27,082 nucleotides of DNA, taken from positions 1 to 27,082 of IMG/VR virus record IMGVR_UViG_3300045051_000239. The stretch is one strand, 5' to 3'. The notes under the pieces are model-generated. The model saw only the letters and a program-made list of their open reading frames with translations. It was not told the origin of the DNA and made no database searches. A program made the translations under genes and the position numbers. The stretch comes from a virus. Shown piece after piece: positions 1 to 27,082 of the stretch. The stretch's first letter is position 1, and each line of letters starts with the position of its first letter.

Positions 1-218
1 AGCAGGTCATCCTTCGTCAGCCCAAGCTGGTCCGCAAGCCTATCGACCTCATCCTGCACTCCACCGATCTGCGAGCCGAGCTCGCTGCCTTGAGCCGCAA
101 TCTGACCCTTCAGCTCGTCTTCAGTGACTCCCAGCTCCTTAAGCAGGTCATCCTTCGTCAGCCCAAGCTGGTCCGCAAGCCTATCGACCTCATCCTGCAC
201 TCCACCGATCTGCGAGCC
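1..218 (-). repeat. 141-bp (47-codon) tandem repeat in the giant protein
   Basis: Bases 1-77 are identical to bases 142-218, giving a period of 141 bp, exactly 47 codons. The encoded unit is heptad-like (VQDEVDRLADQLGLTKDDLL, then a variable part). Inside it there is a smaller quasi-repeat of the form LG-[LV]-T-[KE]-D-[DE]-L. The second copy is cut by the window edge, so the copy number is unknown. Confidence 0.9.
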
Positions 219-2336
219 CAGCGCGTCTTTTGTTTCCCCAAGCCCCGCGAGAAGCTCTTCTTGCGTAACAGTATCGGGCGCAGGCTCAACAGGCGTAGGC
301 TCAACAGGCGTAGGCTCAACAGGCGCAGGCTCAACAGGCGCAGGCTCAACAGGCGTAGGCTCAGGTTGCGGAGGCGTGACTTCCCGGATGATGTCTTCAA
401 TCGACGGCACCTCGGGTTCGGGCTCCGGCAAGATAACCGGCGGCACCTCTGTGTCTTCAGGGGTAGTTACCGGCTGTTCGGGGCTTTGCGGGGTTACGTT
501 CCCCGGGTTCCAGCCACCACCAGCATCAATATTGTCGGGGGTCGTGTCAGGTTCTTCCCCTGCGCCGCCCGCTGCGCCTCCGGCATCCGTGGCGGTTTCA
601 GCCATGCGGTACGTGCCAATGCTGCCATCGGCCGCAACGTACGATGGATCGAAGTACATCCCGGCAAACTCACCGGCGTAATTGCTCTTGGCAGTTTGGG
701 TACCCGCCTTGTCGTAGTTCAGAATCTTCTCAAGCTCGCTGACTCCGGGCACTTCCACGGGGGGCTGCTTTTGCGCTTCAAGGGAGGCAAGGTAATCCTG
801 CACCCGAGTTCTGGCCGCGCCTTCGTTAAAAGTTCCCGCAAACTGAGACACTTCGTCGTCGGTAGGATCGGCGTACCCAAGGTCTCGCATGAGGCTCTTT
901 GCCTCATCAAACGACGTTTCCTTGTAGTCCGCCAAGAACCCCAGTGCGTCCTCTGCACTGTTGTCGAGCTTGGTCAGGACAGTAGACTTTGCGTTTTCGT
1001 CCGCGCCTTCCAGAGAGTCCGAGATCGCCCGGATAGACCCAGCGATGTCCCCCGTGCGGGTCAGCGAATCCAGCGCCTCTTTTGACATCTTCTTGCCAAA
1101 GAGAGATTCGTACTCGTCTTCGGCGTCGGCGACCACTTTCTGCTGGTACTTGGCAATGTCTTGCGACAAACTCTGAAACTCTTGAGAGTCAACCGGCAGG
1201 GTGGCCAGCTTTTGCGCGTGATCCTCAGAAAGCGTCACCCCAAAACTCTTGGAAATCGACTGGAGCGTAGGGGAGCCAAGATCGGCTTGCCGTGCAAAAC
1301 CGAGAGCGGAGGAGAAGATTGCCCCGGGGTTGCCGCTCTTGACGGCATTGATCACATTGGTAGCGTTCTCGGCAAGCTTGAAATCTTGCCGCATGGCGGG
1401 ATTGTCCACCAAAGTCCCAGCAGCGGCCATTGCTGCGGACCAGTCCCCCCTACTGATTGCCGAAGCGGTTGCAGCGGCAGAGATGGGTTTGATAAGGTCC
1501 GAAGGGATAGTGACGCCAACTTGCGGGGCAAGGTTTGTGAGGCTGCCGATAATCCCCGCAAGGTCTCCTTGCTTGAGCGCGTTAAGCGCAGCGACGCTTT
1601 GCTGCGCGGTCTTGATGGCCCCGGCGTTACGCGCAAAGAAGTCCGCAACGGATTGAAATCCAGAAGCGCTCCCGGCCGCAGCATCAGCCGAGCCGTATTG
1701 CGAACCAAAACTGCCAGCGGCGGCCAGCGCGGACAATACCGCGCCAGTCGTGTTCCCTTGGTATGCGTTACCCACGGCATTTAGCGCCGCAGCAAACGGC
1801 GCAATCCCGGGGATGAACGATGCAAAGCTCAGAATAGATGAGATCGCGCCCCAGTCGCTGCTTGACCCGCCGTACTGGGAGTAGAACACGGGCATGCCCA
1901 TGTCGTTAAACTTCACGTTGAACGTAGTCGAACCGTCTCCGGCCCATGTCTTGTTGAACGTGTTGTCGGTTTGGGCGTCTCCACGAACTGCTTGGCCAGT
2001 TTTCTTGTTGTAGAACTCGGGTTTTTGTACTGTGTTGTACCCGCTACCGTACTCGTCAGCGTAAAACTCCTGCACTTCTACGGTTCGCCTTCCAAAGTCC
2101 TCCAGCCGTTCAATACCAGAGCTGGCCAAACTTTGGGCCATAGACCGGGCGTTTTCATAGATAGAGCCAAAGCCCTCCCCGGTCCACTTGTCGTAGGTCT
2201 TCTGCGACAGAATCTGGGCGGTGAGCAGATCAACGCCAGAGCCGTTTTTAAGCTGGTTATTTACCCACTCATCGGAAAACCCAAGCGGCGGAGCGCTGTC
2301 GGTGTAGTCGTCCCTACCCCCTCCAAAGAAACTCAT
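1..2336 (-). CDS. Giant virion/fibre-like protein, partial (C-terminus beyond left edge)
   Basis: An open frame runs from ATG at 2336 to the window edge (778 codons, no stop), so the protein is longer than 778 residues. A strong GGAGGAA site sits 4-5 bases before the ATG. The N-terminal 150 residues are polar. Residues ~163-208 are Ala/Gly-rich and hydrophobic, as in membrane-penetrating ejection proteins. Residues ~560-690 are proline-rich, ending in five-residue PVEP(A/T) repeats. From ~707 a 47-residue coiled-coil-like repeat begins and continues off the edge. It lies next to the tail-hub gene, where phages of this kind encode ejection (internal virion) or long fibre proteins. I recognise no catalytic domain. 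An ejection protein or a tail fibre stalk are the main alternatives; the class as a virion protein is inferred from position and composition. Confidence 0.75.
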   Translation of the reverse strand, partial: MSFFGGGRDDYTDSAPPLGFSDEWVNNQLKNGSGVDLLTAQILSQKTYDKWTGEGFGSIYENARSMAQSLASSGIERLEDFGRRTVEVQEFYADEYGSGYNTVQKPEFYNKKTGQAVRGDAQTDNTFNKTWAGDGSTTFNVKFNDMGMPVFYSQYGGSSSDWGAISSILSFASFIPGIAPFAAALNAVGNAYQGNTTGAVLSALAAAGSFGSQYGSADAAAGSASGFQSVADFFARNAGAIKTAQQSVAALNALKQGDLAGIIGSLTNLAPQVGVTIPSDLIKPISAAATASAISRGDWSAAMAAAGTLVDNPAMRQDFKLAENATNVINAVKSGNPGAIFSSALGFARQADLGSPTLQSISKSFGVTLSEDHAQKLATLPVDSQEFQSLSQDIAKYQQKVVADAEDEYESLFGKKMSKEALDSLTRTGDIAGSIRAISDSLEGADENAKSTVLTKLDNSAEDALGFLADYKETSFDEAKSLMRDLGYADPTDDEVSQFAGTFNEGAARTRVQDYLASLEAQKQPPVEVPGVSELEKILNYDKAGTQTAKSNYAGEFAGMYFDPSYVAADGSIGTYRMAETATDAGGAAGGAGEEPDTTPDNIDAGGGWNPGNVTPQSPEQPVTTPEDTEVPPVILPEPEPEVPSIEDIIREVTPPQPEPTPVEPAPVEPAPVEPTPVEPTPVEPAPDTVTQEELLAGLGETKDALGSQIGGVQDEVDRLADQLGLTKDDLLKELGVTEDELKGQIAAQGSELGSQIGGVQDEVDRLADQLGLTKDDL
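283..363 (-). repeat. 15-bp proline repeat tract (PVEPA/PVEPT)
   Basis: Five full copies of a 15-bp unit, ggctcaacaggcg followed by ta or ca, and a partial sixth lie head to tail. On the coding strand they give Pro-Val-Glu-Pro-Ala/Thr repeated. The only base change among the full copies is the Ala/Thr switch. Such a tract normally forms an extended, stiff linker, here between the globular N-terminal part and the coiled-coil repeat. Confidence 0.9.
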
Positions 2337-7845: not shown

Positions 7846-9231
7846 TCAATAAATCGGCGTCCAAACCTGCGAATCGTAGTCGTTCACGACAACCCAACCA
7901 GAGGACTGCGCGGAGTTGATATTACCCCACGATGTTGTTTCAGAATCGTTAATGATTTCCCACTGAAGCACGCCGACCACAGAGTCTTGGGCGGTCAGAA
8001 GTTCAATCACTGTCACGTTGTACGTGCTGCCCGCAGCGGAATAGTCGTCCAGAGCCGATACGGACTCAGAAACATCCACGGGCATTATCTGCGTCACGTC
8101 GTACGCATCGCCCGCAGTGCCAGTCTCCTCTATTGCAGCGGCAAAATCTACCGAAGCAACGACTTGATCCGACGCAGTAACCGTTTCAGCCACGTCCGCA
8201 GAAAACTCAACGCCAGCATCAACGGTATCGGCCGCCGTGACAGTCTCAGTCAGGTCAGCAACAAAATCAGCGCTGGAAGAGACTTCATCCGTGGCCGTAA
8301 CCGTCTCGGACACCGATGTGGGTATCGTCAGAACACCATCCACTGAGTCTGCGGCAGAGACCGTCTCCGCCACGTCAGTGTTCATCGTGTTCACGGCGTC
8401 TACGGTGTCCGTGGCCGTAACCGTCTCTTCGACGACCTCAACAATACCGTGCGTGGACTCGACCGTATCTACAGCGACAACAGACTCGTCAACAAACCCG
8501 ACGGCATCAAGCCCTGCGTCAACAGCGTCGGCCGCCGTAACGATCTCCGTCAGGTCGGCAACGAAGTCTCCAGAAGCATCCTGCGTGTCTGTGGCGGTTA
8601 CGCTCTCAGCAACGTCAACCCCGATCGTTGTGACGCCATCAACAGAGTCGGAAGCGGATACCGTTTCGGTCAAGTCTGCCACGGCGTCTTGCGTCGTGCT
8701 TACAGAGTCGGTTGCGGCGGCAATTTCGGTCAGCGATTCCGAAAAATCTTGCTGTGCGCTCACAGCGTCCGTGGCAGATGCGGTTTCTGTCAGGTCGCTT
8801 ACAAAGTCCGCCCCCGCACTGACGGTATCTGCCGCAGACACCGTTTCGGTCAGAGCGGCAGAAATGACCAATGTCGCGTCCGTGGCGTCTGCGGCCGAGA
8901 CTGTCTCTGTTAGGCTGGAGGCAAGATCAACCCCGCCGGTAACAGTGTCGGCGGCAGTTGCGGATTCGGTAAGCGCCGCGCCCAGTGCAGTGGTCTCAGA
9001 TACGGAATCAGCCGCTGTGACGGATTCAGTCAGGGCGGAAGCAAAAACCGCAGCAGCCGCCACTGAATCCGTGGCAGTAACCGATTCGGTGAGTGCCGCG
9101 ACAAGGCCAACCGTTGCCGCGAGAGAATCCGCAGCAGAAGCCGTTTCTGTCAGACTGACAGAGTAGGTCTGGGAGGTGACTGGCTCTTCCGCAAATGCCA
9201 GTTCACTGAACGCGGAATCGCCAAACAGCAT
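7846..9231 (-). CDS. Acidic 20-residue-repeat protein, probable fibre or adhesin
   Basis: 461 residues, ATG at 9231 with GGAGG upstream. After a 26-residue leader the protein consists of twenty consecutive 20-residue units (residues 27-426; the last is degenerate) and a 35-residue end piece. Consensus of a unit is [LV]-x-E-[ST]-[VA]-[ST]-A-x-D-x-V followed by nine variable residues. There is no insertion or deletion in any unit. The end piece has spaced tryptophans (SWGN, SGWVV, VWTPIY) like C-termini of some phage fibres. Basic residues are almost absent. It lies between the fibre/chaperone genes and the membrane block. A regular beta-solenoid or stacked beta-hairpin stalk for surface contact is the likely design; this is inferred, and no named family was recognised. 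Confidence 0.88.
   Translation of the reverse strand: MLFGDSAFSELAFAEEPVTSQTYSVSLTETASAADSLAATVGLVAALTESVTATDSVAAAAVFASALTESVTAADSVSETTALGAALTESATAADTVTGGVDLASSLTETVSAADATDATLVISAALTETVSAADTVSAGADFVSDLTETASATDAVSAQQDFSESLTEIAAATDSVSTTQDAVADLTETVSASDSVDGVTTIGVDVAESVTATDTQDASGDFVADLTEIVTAADAVDAGLDAVGFVDESVVAVDTVESTHGIVEVVEETVTATDTVDAVNTMNTDVAETVSAADSVDGVLTIPTSVSETVTATDEVSSSADFVADLTETVTAADTVDAGVEFSADVAETVTASDQVVASVDFAAAIEETGTAGDAYDVTQIMPVDVSESVSALDDYSAAGSTYNVTVIELLTAQDSVVGVLQWEIINDSETTSWGNINSAQSSGWVVVNDYDSQVWTPIY
7954..9153 (-). repeat. Twenty tandem 60-bp units coding 20-residue repeats
   Basis: The stretch divides exactly into twenty 60-bp units that encode the 20-residue repeat. Units differ at the DNA level (third positions and variable residues), so the array is old or under selection and is not a recent slippage product. 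The invariant Glu at unit position 3, Ala at 7 and Asp at 9 are kept in almost all units. Confidence 0.9.
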
Positions 9232-23358: not shown

Positions 23359-24912
23359 TTAATAATATGCCGCCCCACGACGGGCCCTTACGAAGACCTC
23401 ATTATCTTCCTTGTCGGTGTGCAGGCGCAACAGGCCTCCCTTGCGCACGCGCGCCAGAGCCAGCGTCATGGCATCCACCTCGTCGTCGTGTTCGCCGGCC
23501 GGGAACGCAAGAATCTCCTCCACCGTGGAGCTGGCCCATGCCGTTTCGGGGAACCACACCTGCCCAGAGGCAAACATATCGGCCACGGCGTTGAGCCGGG
23601 CGATCTTGTCCTGCCCCTTACCCGGGCTGAAGTCCTGCACAAAGATACCCGATCGGCGCATCTCGTCAATGAGCGGCTGGCCGCTGGCCTTGGCTTCCAC
23701 GATCACGCTGTCAGGCTGCCATTCTTCGTACTGCTCGTGGGCCATGACCTTGAGCTCGGGGAACTCGTACTTGCCCTTGACCTTGTTGAGCAGGATCACG
23801 TTGGTGGAGTTGTTGTCCTCCTCGTTCACCCACACACCCCATGTATGGCACACAGAGAAGTCCGATCGTTCCTTGGTCGTGAGCGCCGTATCGAACGCCT
23901 GCACAATGAAGTCGCACGGGGGCGGGTCCTCGTGAGGCCACCACCTGATCCAATCGCGTTTGATGATGGCAGCTTCGGCAGCCGTGGGGTTCTGCTGGTA
24001 CTGGGCATACCACTGCCACATGATGTGGTGCATCGACGCCCGGGTTTTCTGCAGCGCCTCGAGCGTCCACTGCTCGGGCCAGATCGACTTCTCGTTCTCG
24101 GTGCCCTCGTTCAAGATGGCCGGGAATTCGAACGCCTCGTACTTGTCGCCGCCCTCGTTGACGGCCGAATCCTTGAGCAAGCGCCCAATCAGGTCTCGCT
24201 GGTGCCACCGGGTGTGCAGCACGCATATCTTGCCTTCGGGCATCAGACGAGTGCGCAGACCGGCACTGAACCATTCGTACGTTGTGTCGAGGCTGGAGGT
24301 GTTCCCCGCCTTGATGTCCTGTTCGGACAGCGGATCGTCGGCAATGATGAGGTGTGCACCCCGGCCGGCCAACGCGCCGCCCACACCGATCGCAAAATAC
24401 TCACCGCCTTGGGTCGTGTTCCACTGGGCAGCCGCCTTGGCGTCGCTGGCAATCTTGGTCTGGGGAAAAATCCGGGCGTATTCGGCACTGGCAATGAGGT
24501 TTCGCACCTTGCGCGCCATGACCACGGCAAGGTCTGCCGTGTGGGAGGCCACAATCACCTTGTGGTCGGGGTGCCGGCCCAAATACCACGCTGGGTAGTA
24601 GATGGAAATCATCTGGGACTTGCCCATACGAGGCGCCATGCTGACGGCAATCCGGTCTTTGGTCCCGTCTTCGACGTCCATCAGCAGGTTTCCCAGCCGC
24701 CGCAGGTGTGTGCCGAACTTGTAGTTGCGGTCGATGGCCGCAATGAACGCCAAAAAGTCATCCTGCGCCGCTTTGACTGCTTTTCGCTCCTCGAGCTCCT
24801 CCATCATGGCCAAAAGCTCCGCCGCCTCGTTGTGCGGCAGGCTTTTTATGACCTTTTCCAGCAATTCTGGGGTCAAAGAGGTCTCACTGAGCAGGGCCAT
24901 CGTCCGTTTCAA
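23359..24912 (-). CDS. terL: Terminase large subunit (packaging ATPase-nuclease)
   Basis: 517 residues from ATG at 24912; a second ATG at 24900 (MALLSETSL) is possible. Drives DNA into the head and cuts the concatemer. Walker A-like APRMGKSQ is at 93-100, Walker B LIIADD at 188-193, coupling motif VLHTRW at ~231-236. The RNase H-like nuclease has Asp341 (AFDTALT), Glu406 (VIVEAKASG) and Asp476/Asp480 (HDDEVDAM). The N-terminal ~55 residues form a helical extension. The gene overlaps the small subunit end by 29 bases, and the portal follows after a 9-base gap. Catalytic residues all appear present. Confidence 0.95.
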   Translation of the reverse strand: MKRTMALLSETSLTPELLEKVIKSLPHNEAAELLAMMEELEERKAVKAAQDDFLAFIAAIDRNYKFGTHLRRLGNLLMDVEDGTKDRIAVSMAPRMGKSQMISIYYPAWYLGRHPDHKVIVASHTADLAVVMARKVRNLIASAEYARIFPQTKIASDAKAAAQWNTTQGGEYFAIGVGGALAGRGAHLIIADDPLSEQDIKAGNTSSLDTTYEWFSAGLRTRLMPEGKICVLHTRWHQRDLIGRLLKDSAVNEGGDKYEAFEFPAILNEGTENEKSIWPEQWTLEALQKTRASMHHIMWQWYAQYQQNPTAAEAAIIKRDWIRWWPHEDPPPCDFIVQAFDTALTTKERSDFSVCHTWGVWVNEEDNNSTNVILLNKVKGKYEFPELKVMAHEQYEEWQPDSVIVEAKASGQPLIDEMRRSGIFVQDFSPGKGQDKIARLNAVADMFASGQVWFPETAWASSTVEEILAFPAGEHDDEVDAMTLALARVRKGGLLRLHTDKEDNEVFVRARRGAAYY

Positions 24913-25453
24913 GCTCTGAGAAGTCGATCGGAGTGGATTTTTGGGTCTCGGCAGGGGCCGGCGCGACCACTTCGGCTTCGATTACCCGTGTCAGGCGCTC
25001 GCGCAGCAGCTGCTCGAGCTCTTCTGTCGGCCTATGGCGCATCGTGATCTCGGTTTTGTCCGTGAACAGGCCCACATCGGAGACTTTACCCAGCATCTCG
25101 AGGGCTCTGAGGCGCACCCGCGGGTCGGCATTGTCCGTTTCGAGGATCAGCCGGTTGGTTATGTAGGTCCGCAGCTGTGCAGCAGACTTCACCACGGTCC
25201 TGTCGTACTCGGTCAGCAGGGCGCCGATGTGCGCAATCACCCCCGGCTGGGACAAATCGTTGTCCGACGCCATCCGATCGCCCACAAAAATGGAGCGCGA
25301 GAGCGCCTGATCCATCACGTCGATGGCATCGGGGAGGGAATCTGTGTCTGTGAGGGTGGCAAGTGCGGCAGCCACCCGATCCTCGAGCGATTCGAAGGTA
25401 GGGCTGTAGTCCGCAAGGGGGACGTCGTAGTCGACAGTGACTTGGTATGCCAT
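24884..25453 (-). CDS. terS: Terminase small subunit
   Basis: 189 residues from ATG at 25453 (MAYQVTVDYDVP). A longer frame starts at 25507, but that ATG lies between the -35 and -10 of the promoter at 25486-25514, so it would not be in the message. AGGAGT is 12 bases upstream of 25453, somewhat far. The sequence is mostly helical: N-terminal acidic segment, helices ~35-75, a central IGALLTEYDRTVVKSAAQLRTYI helix (in parts), 'DPRVRLRALEMLGKVSDVGLF' (in parts), and a C-terminal variable tail. It recognises the packaging start site and activates the large subunit. No strong similarity is used; the call rests on size, helical pattern and immediate position before terL. Confidence 0.8.
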   Translation of the reverse strand: MAYQVTVDYDVPLADYSPTFESLEDRVAAALATLTDTDSLPDAIDVMDQALSRSIFVGDRMASDNDLSQPGVIAHIGALLTEYDRTVVKSAAQLRTYITNRLILETDNADPRVRLRALEMLGKVSDVGLFTDKTEITMRHRPTEELEQLLRERLTRVIEAEVVAPAPAETQKSTPIDFSELETDDGPAQ

Positions 25454-25485
25454 GGAGGGGTTCGCACTCCTGAAGATGGGCGCAT

Positions 25486-25514
25486 TGTATATGTTATTTT
25501 TTCGCATGGGTCAA
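25486..25514 (-). promoter_or_regulatory. Sigma70-type promoter for the terminase/late genes
   Basis: On the minus strand TTGACC (25509-25514) is followed after exactly 17 bases by TATACA (25486-25491). Five of six positions match the consensus in each box. Transcription would start near 25479, upstream of the terS ATG at 25453. Confidence 0.7.
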
Positions 25515-25525
25515 ATTTTTTGCAC

Positions 25526-25598
25526 GGGGGGTGTTTCCTATATAGAGGGGGTGGGGGTCGGTAGTTGTATTATTTTTGTTGTGGGGTGGTGTTGGGGG
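25526..25598 (+). other. Cluster of five G-runs upstream of the late promoter
   Basis: Runs of 6, 5, 5, 4 and 5 G occur at 25526-25531, 25547-25551, 25553-25557, 25583-25586 and 25594-25598. They could in principle form a G-quadruplex or a protein-bound site; the loops of 15 and 25 bases are long for the former. It lies within 12 bases of the -35 box. Confidence 0.45.
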
Positions 25599-25687
25599 AT
25601 ACGGAGCTCAGCGTAAAGCGGACGCGTGGAGTCCCAGAACCAGTTGTGGGCCCCGGGGTACGGTGGGGTCGTCGCTGGCCGGATTCG

Positions 25688-25701
25688 GTCTACGCTTAGA
25701 C
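25688..25701. promoter_or_regulatory. Palindromic site, copy 1 (one mismatch)
   Basis: GTCTACGCTTAGAC, one mismatch from the perfect 14-bp palindrome GTCTAAGCTTAGAC. Its end is 12 bases upstream of the -35 box of the plus-strand promoter, a position used by activators or repressors. Confidence 0.6.
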
Positions 25702-25713
25702 TTACCCAAGGGA

Positions 25714-25742
25714 TTGACAAGGCGCGCCGCTTATGATGTAAT
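25714..25742 (+). promoter_or_regulatory. Sigma70-type promoter for the plus-strand genes
   Basis: Perfect -35 TTGACA (25714-25719), 17-base spacer, -10 TGTAAT (25737-25742), five of six. Start of transcription would be near 25750, immediately at the inverted repeat. The nearest gene starts at 25792. Confidence 0.75.
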
Positions 25743-25749
25743 ACATATA

Positions 25750-25769
25750 CCGAATCAATACCGATTCGG
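25750..25769 (+). promoter_or_regulatory. Inverted repeat at the plus-strand transcription start
   Basis: CCGAATC (25750-25756) and GATTCGG (25763-25769) pair perfectly over a 6-base spacer. It covers the expected transcription start, so it may be an operator or a 5' hairpin of the mRNA. A further GATTCGG half-site is at 25682-25688, next to palindrome copy 1. Confidence 0.55.
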
Positions 25770-25791
25770 GCAAACCTTAAAGGAAAACACC

Positions 25792-26331
25792 ATGACTGCA
25801 AACACCATTACCCCCGTGTCTTTTGACAATGCCGCGCTCGCCATTGTGCGCACCATGGACAAGGCCGATAAAGCCTATGTCAAAGCCACGGCCGAAGTCG
25901 CCCGAATCATGCAACAGTTTATTGACCAATGGTTTATTACCAACGGCAAGGCCGAAGCATCGGTGAAGGCCATGGGCAAGGCCATCCGCGAATCGCAAAC
26001 CGTGGTCGACCTTGCTGCGCAAGGCGCGTGCGAGAAAAAGACGTTTACCGAATATGCTCAAGGCGCCATGCGCGCACTGCATTACGGCGTGCCGTTTTCC
26101 GCTGACCTGAAAAACAATCCGGAAATGGGTTTGCCATGGGGCAAGGCCGGCAAGACCAGCACCGCGAAGGCCGGCAAGGTCACCAGCACCAGCCGCACCG
26201 ACTTGGACAAAACCCTCAGTAAAGCACTGGCGCAAGCCCGCGCCCTTGGACTGACTGACTTTGCCGCCGATGTGCTGGACTTGTGCCTGGACTCGCTGGA
26301 CGGTTTCAAGGAAACCGTGCTCGACAAGTAA
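25792..26331 (+). CDS. Plus-strand early protein of unknown function
   Basis: 179 residues; ATG at 25792 with AAGGAAA seven bases upstream. Residues ~1-110 are helical (NAALAIVRTMDKADKAYVK, KATAEVARIMQQFIDQWFI, VKAMGKAIRESQTVVDLAAQ), with 'YAQGAMRALHYGVPFSADLK' at ~85-105. A Lys/Ser/Thr linker (~117-135, KAGKTSTAKAGKVTSTSR) leads to a C-terminal helical domain (DKTLSKALAQARALGLTDFA, ADVLDLCLDSLDGFKE). No domain recognised. Single gene between a strong promoter and a hairpin terminator, suggesting a high-dose early product. A DNA-binding or host-takeover protein is plausible but unsupported. Confidence 0.88.
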   Translation: MTANTITPVSFDNAALAIVRTMDKADKAYVKATAEVARIMQQFIDQWFITNGKAEASVKAMGKAIRESQTVVDLAAQGACEKKTFTEYAQGAMRALHYGVPFSADLKNNPEMGLPWGKAGKTSTAKAGKVTSTSRTDLDKTLSKALAQARALGLTDFAADVLDLCLDSLDGFKETVLDK

Positions 26332-26338
26332 TCAACCC

Positions 26339-26362
26339 GCCCGGGCGCAAGCCCGGGCTTTT
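26339..26362 (+). terminator. Intrinsic terminator with GCAA loop
   Basis: GCCCGGGC (26339-26346), loop GCAA, GCCCGGGC (26351-26358), then TTTT (26359-26362). The 8-bp all-GC stem with a GNRA tetraloop starts 8 bases after the stop of the 179-residue gene. The T-run is only four bases, so some read-through to the two small genes is likely. Confidence 0.88.
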
Positions 26363-26379
26363 CATTAGGATTAAACATC

Positions 26380-26526
26380 ATGACCGAAGCATTAACCGAA
26401 TTAGCCGCCCGATATGGCAAAGACAACCGGGGTTATCTGGTGACCTTTGACGATAACGGGGATTGGTACATTGTCGTGCTGGATATGGACACCGGGGACA
26501 TTCTGGCCCGTGCCCCGAAGGAATGA
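26380..26526 (+). CDS. Small acidic protein, 48 residues
   Basis: ATG at 26380, TGA at 26524-26526, with AGGA nine bases upstream. The product starts MTEALTELAARYGKDNRGY, continues with a beta-hairpin-like 'LVTFDDNGDWYIVVLDMDTG' and ends in DILARAPKE. It is acidic and probably a small alpha/beta or beta-hairpin fold. It follows a terminator, so it depends on read-through or its own weak promoter. Small phage inhibitors of host enzymes have this size; function unknown. Confidence 0.65.
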   Translation: MTEALTELAARYGKDNRGYLVTFDDNGDWYIVVLDMDTGDILARAPKE

Positions 26527-26531
26527 CCGCC

Positions 26532-26636
26532 ATGTTCTATACCATGCACGTCCGCGTCGGCCGCGATGTCCGAATCGGGTATTTCCTTTTCGGGCGGCTG
26601 GTCTACACCGGCAAGCGCACGATGTTCCGCATCTAA
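26532..26636 (+). CDS. Small basic protein, 34 residues
   Basis: ATG at 26532, TAA at 26634-26636. AAGGA lies nine bases upstream, inside the end of the previous gene. The product, MFYTMHVRVGRDVRIGYFLF followed by GRLVYTGKRTMFRI, is basic and aromatic with alternating strand pattern. It ends 17 bases before a hairpin terminator, so the pair with the 48-residue gene looks like a tiny operon. Very short, so it could be spurious, but the ribosome site and terminator support it. Confidence 0.55.
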   Translation: MFYTMHVRVGRDVRIGYFLFGRLVYTGKRTMFRI

Positions 26637-26653
26637 TCTGAGACCCCCACGAT

Positions 26654-26677
26654 GCCCGGCTTCGGCCGGGCTTTTTT
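26654..26677 (+). terminator. Intrinsic terminator with TTCG loop
   Basis: GCCCGGC (26654-26660), loop TTCG, GCCGGGC (26665-26671), then six T (26672-26677). A 7-bp GC stem, UUCG tetraloop and T6 tail make this a textbook factor-independent terminator. It ends the plus-strand transcription unit. Confidence 0.93.
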
Positions 26678-26706
26678 GCGTCCGCAGTTTGGCCGCCGTT
26701 CCCACG

Positions 26707-26725
26707 TCTGTACCATGCGTACAGA
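26707..26725. promoter_or_regulatory. Inverted repeat TCTGTAC-N5-GTACAGA
   Basis: Perfect 7-base arms (26707-26713 and 26719-26725) around CATGC. Arms and spacing resemble an operator for a dimeric helix-turn-helix protein. No T-run follows, so it is not a terminator. Confidence 0.45.
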
Positions 26726-26816
26726 AAGCGTCATAGTAGTCTGACCGTGCGGGAGAGTGAGCCAGTGAGCGCGTGCGTACGTGAGTGAGGGAGGGCCGGG
26801 GCCACGGCAGCCGCCC

Positions 26817-26830
26817 GTCTAAGCTTAGAC
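26817..26830. promoter_or_regulatory. Palindromic site, copy 2 (perfect)
   Basis: GTCTAAGCTTAGAC is a perfect 14-bp palindrome without spacer. It begins 140 bases after the last terminator and ends 19 bases before the first TGTAACGCA box. Same sequence as copies 1 and 3. Confidence 0.7.
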
Positions 26831-26849
26831 GCTATGGCTATTATGAGGT

Positions 26850-27026
26850 TGTAACGCATGTAACGCAAATCGCAGGTTTGTAACGCAAATTGCAGCGCCG
26901 AGCGTTACATCAACCCGTAATACACATAGCTCGAAAAAACCGTTACAAATCAACAACTTACATAAATAAATAAAAAAAAAAAAAAAAAAATTATTATTAT
27001 TAGGAGTTTGTAACGCATGTAACGCA
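26850..27026. repeat. TGTAACGCA box array around an A/T-rich core
   Basis: Five exact copies of TGTAACGCA lie at 26850, 26859, 26879, 27009 and 27018. Reverse partners are GCGTTACA (26902-26909) and CGTTACA (26941-26947). The tandem pair TGTAACGCATGTAACGCA occurs twice, 26850-26867 and 27009-27026. A 17-base direct repeat with one mismatch occurs at 26859-26875 and 26879-26895, 20 bases apart. Between the arms is A/T-rich DNA with 19 A (26972-26990) and TTATTATTATTA (26991-27002). Regular boxes plus an easily melted segment are typical of iteron-type origins; a repressor-operator cluster is the alternative. Confidence 0.7.
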
Positions 27027-27055
27027 CTTTTTTATGTGTCGGTCAAAATTTTCCC

Positions 27056-27069
27056 ATCTAAGCTTAGAC
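27056..27069. promoter_or_regulatory. Palindromic site, copy 3 (one mismatch)
   Basis: ATCTAAGCTTAGAC: the inner 12 bases TCTAAGCTTAGA are a perfect palindrome and 13 of 14 bases match the full site. It ends 13 bases before the window edge. If it works like copy 1, a promoter -35 box should follow just outside the window. Confidence 0.6.
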
Positions 27070-27082
27070 TCTCCATAAATTG

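Follow-up and report, generated by a model that had tools for sequence, protein, structure and literature searches.

What does the segment at positions 26,817–27,069 of the window do for its phage? The window, which is the whole stretch of DNA analyzed, comprises the entire IMG/VR record IMGVR_UViG_3300045051_000239, complete at 27,082 bases. The first-pass annotation offered the segment as either a replication origin or a cooperative operator for the early genes to its right. Our analysis revealed that "origin" and "operator region" are each partly right because the palindromes at this site are dispersed control sites, probably bound by a different protein, and are separate from the repeated boxes with which they had been grouped. 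We put at roughly two in three the probability that this segment forms the left half of a replication origin compounded with an early control region, whose boxes are read by a PrimPol-DUF927 protein and whose palindromes are read by the product of the first early gene (gene 1).

The end of the window truncates the element, and a second contig, G009 (also L009; 38,097 bp), which starts inside the box array, carries the remainder up to the first early gene. Window positions 26864–27082 are identical to the start of G009, save that the A run has 20 residues in G009 and 19 in the window, and the far end of G009 overlaps the left end of the window exactly over 127 bp. From both end overlaps, we infer a circle of 64,832 bp (~64.8 kb). 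The assembly break at the left end falls in repeats within a tail-fibre-like gene (window 1–400). The late genes of the window point leftward, and the early genes of G009 point rightward and include DNA polymerase A, an exonuclease, an SNF2-type helicase, and the PrimPol-DUF927 protein (~945 aa). The minus strand of the window also encodes, at 7846–9231, a 461-aa protein of ~23-residue repeats (ESVTAADSV...), which is probably a repetitive structural protein. No integrase was recognized in the gene list, which is incomplete, and no tRNA or known RNA family was found near the array.

The window phage is an uncultured, ~65-kb tailed relative of the HTVC023P/DSL-LC04-type podoviruses. In a terminase comparison, DSL-LC04 and HTVC023P were the nearest of the isolated or named phages (~45% identity), and DNA similarity to isolated phages was confined to a terminase fragment. 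A host search in bacterial genomes matched a single MAG contig, L373 (CAIRTT010000433.1, binned as Armatimonadetes), which has an 85%-identical terminase and is probably a mis-binned piece of phage. The genome G001 (67.5 kb) has 97% terminase identity to the window phage, and its one contig spans the entire array region unbroken. This bears on whether the array could be a packaging or partition site (pac/parS-like), as might be suspected from its position ~2 kb upstream of the large terminase gene, from the contigs that end near it (the window, G009, G010, and G003), and from the small terminase gene often found near TGTAAC arrays elsewhere (described below). We consider such a site very improbable, since G001 crosses the array without a break, the break between the window and G009 is an assembly overlap with differing A-run length, and a fixed A/T-rich unwinding-type stretch is unexpected at a pac site.

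The array and its palindromes comprise the following features (window coordinates unless stated).

26817..26830, palindromic putative operator O1, GTCTAAGCTTAGAC, at the left edge of the array; one of 17 genome copies
26850..26867, plus strand, tandem pair of TGTAACGCA boxes, start of the left quartet
26879..26887, plus strand, third TGTAACGCA box of the left quartet
26901..26909, minus strand, inverted box (TGTAACGCT in minus-strand reading), fourth of the left quartet
26942..26946, minus strand, isolated inverted GTTAC box, only in the window phage and G001
26953..27002, A/T-rich stretch and candidate unwinding element, 94% A/T over 50 bp, including the 19-A run and TTA repeats
27009..27026, plus strand, tandem pair of TGTAACGCA boxes, the first inner pair
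27056..27069, palindromic putative operator O2, ATCTAAGCTTAGAC, close to the middle of the complete element
G009 426–437, palindromic putative operator O3

Most of the parts described by the first-pass annotation were recovered: the five exact TGTAACGCA boxes (starts 26850, 26859, 26879, 27009, and 27018), the two inverted partial boxes (AGCGTTACA at 26901–26909 and GTTAC at 26942–26946), the tandem pair duplicated 159 bp apart, which is a 29-bp repeat with 93% identity, and the 19-A run (26972–26990), which is followed by the TTA repeats TTATTATTATTA. All exact TGTAACGCA boxes of the closed genome lie within the array region and none outside, and 0.3 were expected on both strands of a simulated 64.8-kb closed genome. 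The palindromes said to bracket the array are present on both outer sides, but only the left one is exactly GTCTAAGCTTAGAC; the right copy, ATCTAAGCTTAGAC, has an identical 12-bp core and differs in the outermost base. Nor are these brackets specific to the site, as the palindrome recurs across the early half of the genome. The remainder of the element in G009 contributes two inverted tandem pairs (276–293 and 372–389), two more GTTAC boxes, and the third palindrome.

The complete element spans ~470 bp and contains 12–13 GTWAC boxes arranged 4+2|2+4 about a near-dyad. The window phage has 13 boxes over 400 bp (offsets 0, 9, 29, 53, 91, 159, 168, 290, 299, 351, 366, 386, and 395), G001 also has 13, and most relatives have 8–13; the common plan has offsets 0, 8, 28, 42, 138, 146 | 270, 278, 364, 378, 399, and 407. 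The same boxes were sought in related phages and found, so that the lack of conservation named beforehand as grounds against the proposal was not seen. Array geometry is kept almost to the base in 20-odd (~25) relatives while the spacers diverge, and in an alignment of 22 arrays the top-base frequency is 92% in box columns vs 61% in other columns. Box positions are constant and orientations variable; orientation switches freely because GTAAC and GTTAC differ in the central base only. The A/T peak (richest 50 bp, mostly 76%–94%) keeps a constant offset in nearly all relatives, after the first quartet and ahead of the first inner pair, L062 being the exception, and one genome within the clade, G026, has only degenerate boxes. 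The relatives thus share with iteron origins both multiple spaced short boxes and, judged on composition (80%–94% A/T in nearly all), an adjacent A/T-rich stretch.

The genome also encodes a replicative helicase of a suitable kind. A search for a replication gene, as the first-pass annotation had advised, found PrimPol-DUF927 at G009 24130–26964; its DUF927 domain scored E = 8e-22, and phmmer matched this region to 8tch, a solved pathogenicity-island protein. A DUF927 or D5-type self-loading helicase is a hallmark of SaPI Rep/Cch-type replicons; by contrast, the array is not directly downstream of the helicase gene, which sits at the opposite end of the early block, ~24 kb away. The expectation of a replication gene near the array therefore failed for this initiator candidate, and so did that of a GC-skew turning point, the skew across the closed genome being flat and uninformative. 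The predicted PrimPol structure (pLDDT 35) was set aside.

Arrays of the word TGTAAC in unrelated phages also speak for an origin. A scan with the pattern TGTAACN3TGTAACN3TGTAAC gave 121 loci for analysis and a TGATAC control pattern gave 120; the match lay outside ORFs of ≥120 aa at 79 of the 121 test loci vs 27 of the 120 controls, and one primase-helicase family occurred near 19 arrays vs 1 control (Fisher P = 2e-5), in a comparison limited by the control word often lying within coding sequence and by the 19 loci including L003, L006, and L015, near copies of one virus. The distance from array to gene was mostly ≤260 bp, and the array was on the 3′ side of the gene in 17 of the 19. Family scans showed that arrays also adjoin VapE, PriCT_2, D5_N, and DUF5906 proteins and that two adjoin DUF927+Cch-HTH proteins. 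Loci with tandem TGTAAC arrays just 3′ of primase-helicase genes include L189, L242, L162, and L240. This recurrence suggests that such arrays may be a general origin signature; a literature search on TGTAAC/GTAACG origins returned nothing relevant.

TGTAAC arrays were not found in distant PrimPol homologs, a seeming contradiction that is resolved by TGTTC boxes at the same place. Three cousins, G020 (L459), G021 (L462), and G022 (L466), with ~46% terminase and 40% PrimPol identity to the window phage, carry TGTTC/GAACA arrays 1.7–2.1 kb upstream of terL. G020 and G022 have the quartet–pair–pair order of the window clade, and G020 has its A/T-rich peak between the first quartet and the first pair. 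Divergence in PrimPol is thus accompanied by divergence in the box sequence. DSL-LC04 lacks both PrimPol and the array, and G022 additionally carries 11 dispersed copies of TTAACNNNNGTTAA.

Taken with the conserved box geometry, the fixed A/T-rich element, and PrimPol-DUF927 in the genome, the association of TGTAAC arrays with primase-helicase genes makes it quite probable that the box array is a replication origin. PrimPol-DUF927 is the candidate binder of its boxes, and a 90-aa protein with a confident helix-turn-helix (HTH), encoded directly before PrimPol, is the alternative. An origin whose initiator is this HTH protein, an unrecognized phage protein, or a host factor seems rather doubtful to us: a shared host factor may bind TGTAAC and could explain arrays beside several helicase families, but in unrelated phages the arrays stand beside the primase-helicase gene itself, and the boxes of the cousins change along with PrimPol divergence.

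If PrimPol-DUF927, whose helicase domain is related to those of the self-loading SaPI Rep/SCCmec Cch initiators, reads the boxes, its iterons would be twelve GTWAC-type boxes, divided equally between the two halves in near-mirror order (six each), with possibly one hexamer bound per half. The protein would melt the A/T-rich stretch that separates the first quartet from the first inner pair, and replication would start at the element and proceed bidirectionally. This pairing, the melting, and the loading of two hexamers are predictions.

The palindromes behave differently from the boxes. The word TCTAANNTTAGA has 17 copies in the closed genome (0.0 expected), all at 26.8–43.2 kb in the early half and none in the late half, located immediately ahead of start codons, at the ends of genes, or inside them; no shared motif was found around them other than the palindrome itself. 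The word switches in concert by lineage, with TCTAAGCTTAGA, TCTAATATTAGA, TTCTAANNTTAGAA, TTATAANNTTATAA, TTTTAANNTTAAAA, TCTTAANNTTAAGA, TTATATNNATATAA, TATACNNGTATA, CGTAANNTTACG, and TAGCANNNTGCTA in different lineages, the last few having 4–8 copies each in single contigs; in G003, all 15 of 15 palindromes are TCTAATATTAGA. Palindrome copies frame the array in the lineages with both edges checked.

On the late side of the array, a variant of the palindrome is paired with a promoter.

25689..25700, palindrome variant TCTACGCTTAGA (1 mismatch), 25 bp upstream of the gene P promoter
25714–25742, sigma-70-like promoter (11/12 match) in front of gene P
25792..26331, plus strand, gene P (179 aa), conserved and flanking the array on its late side; start codon picked by eye
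26654..26677, plus strand, intrinsic terminator (consensus match) between gene P and the array; another at 26339–26362

G001 has the palindrome variant and the gene P promoter paired likewise (65814/65838). Judged from its consensus match, the terminator at 26654..26677 is predicted to insulate the array from rightward gene P transcription.

Gene 1, encoded just to the right of the array, is present in every palindrome-bearing genome that covers the region, and its product is the likely binder of the palindromes. The protein (model pLDDT 87) has a C-terminal HTH and an N-terminal RHH-like part, so called from the strand-helix-helix pattern of the predicted model without a family match. The HTH superimposes on operator-bound KorA (5clv_A and 2w7n_B) with probability 0.99 and an RMSD of 1.4 Å over 51 columns (Foldseek E = 0.5–0.8); Mor and sigma region 4 are matches comparable to KorA, so that the similarity is one of fold only. 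The KORA profile gave E = 0.003, under the gathering score and in two relatives only, which falls short of assigning gene 1 to the KorA family by sequence. One residue of the recognition helix varies with operator class, being N with TCTAATATTAGA, G with TTTTAA, and H with the TTCTAA/TTATAA group, but this association is confounded with phylogeny (operator class takes 10 changes on the gene 1 tree vs 11 on the terminase tree, which is not decisive). Two genomes (L049 and L062) have two copies of gene 1, and two others (L053 and L119) have a second HTH within one gene 1 protein; these duplications may relate to changes in operator specificity.

A TTGACA-17-TATAAT promoter lies 3′ of gene 1, perfect in five genomes and with one mismatch in G003. 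A palindrome lies 111–147 bp from the start of this early promoter, downstream each time and with conserved spacing, which points to a roadblock and not to occlusion of the promoter. The distal early region of G003 (43738), G007 (15164), and G008 (25269) has a second conserved promoter, perfect or nearly so (TTGAC...TAAATTT.ACAGTGTATAAT), with no palindrome nearby. We infer that the palindromes at both edges and in the middle of the array are operators of the gene 1 protein, which would also occupy another 14 sites among the early genes, one of them downstream of the strong early promoter, and would thereby dampen or stop transcription of the early genes and possibly use of the origin.

These operators, together with the location of the array where the early block begins, the insulating terminator before it, and the perfect sigma-70 promoter and gene 1 downstream, might instead make the entire region a transcriptional switch, with the GTWAC boxes as a cooperative operator or enhancer for early promoters, to which a phage or host regulator would bind, and replication starting elsewhere. 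We regard this as unlikely: the A/T-rich stretch fixed inside the array and the TGTAAC arrays 3′ of primase-helicase genes in unrelated phages fit an origin better, and the near-dyad 4+2|2+4 plan extends over ~400 bp with only weak promoter-like matches (9/12).

If the compound origin and control region is correct, an uncultured phage group recurring across many metagenomes gains both an origin and a global regulator that can be tested. Self-loading initiation of the DUF927/SaPI type would then extend to the large genome of a tailed phage, in which box layout predicts initiator stoichiometry, and the phages would provide a natural series of operator words with matching regulators for studying how a many-site repressor changes specificity. 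TGTAAC arrays are a possible search handle for origins beside primase-helicases across phages. More tentatively, and at somewhat less than even odds, these apparently lytic phages may use a rapidly diversifying regulator and about ten operator words, each changing jointly at as many as ~17 places per genome and framing the origin, to form operator-specificity ("immunity" or incompatibility) groups, with the 2 × 6 boxes templating two opposed initiator hexamers.

Several known systems resemble parts of this arrangement. Origins of the phage P4 and lambda O type have iterons in both orientations and an A/T-rich part, and in P4 a primase-helicase-initiator fusion reads the iterons; the window phage differs from them in box sequence, layout, and helicase family. 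Mycobacteriophage L5 and its Cluster A relatives have up to ~30 dispersed stoperators per genome, most of them not associated with promoters, whose sequence is particular to the lineage and diverges along with the repressor (PMC6550527). The palindromes of the window phage are likewise many dispersed copies of one lineage-specific site; unlike the asymmetric, one-orientation stoperators, they are palindromic, are confined to the early half, and also frame an origin-like array. KorA, a global replicon regulator of IncP-1 plasmids, binds the operator OA, GTTTAGCTAAAC, a 12-bp palindrome (PMC2680271). The window phage operator is also a 12-bp palindrome of similar make-up with a putative KorA-like HTH, but gene 1 has an RHH-like N-terminal part and lacks confident sequence homology to KorA, and the number of operator sites and the host replicon differ. 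SaPI Rep reads iterons directly downstream of its own gene, and SCCmec Cch is a DUF927 protein related to SaPIbov1 Rep (PMC7581432). These origins share with the window phage short repeated boxes, a DUF927-type AAA+ initiator helicase, and a two-hexamer model (PMC7581432); TGTAAC arrays elsewhere likewise lie 3′ of genes for such helicases. In the window phage, by contrast, the helicase is fused to a primase-polymerase and encoded ~24 kb away from the array, which also includes operators that probably belong to a second protein.
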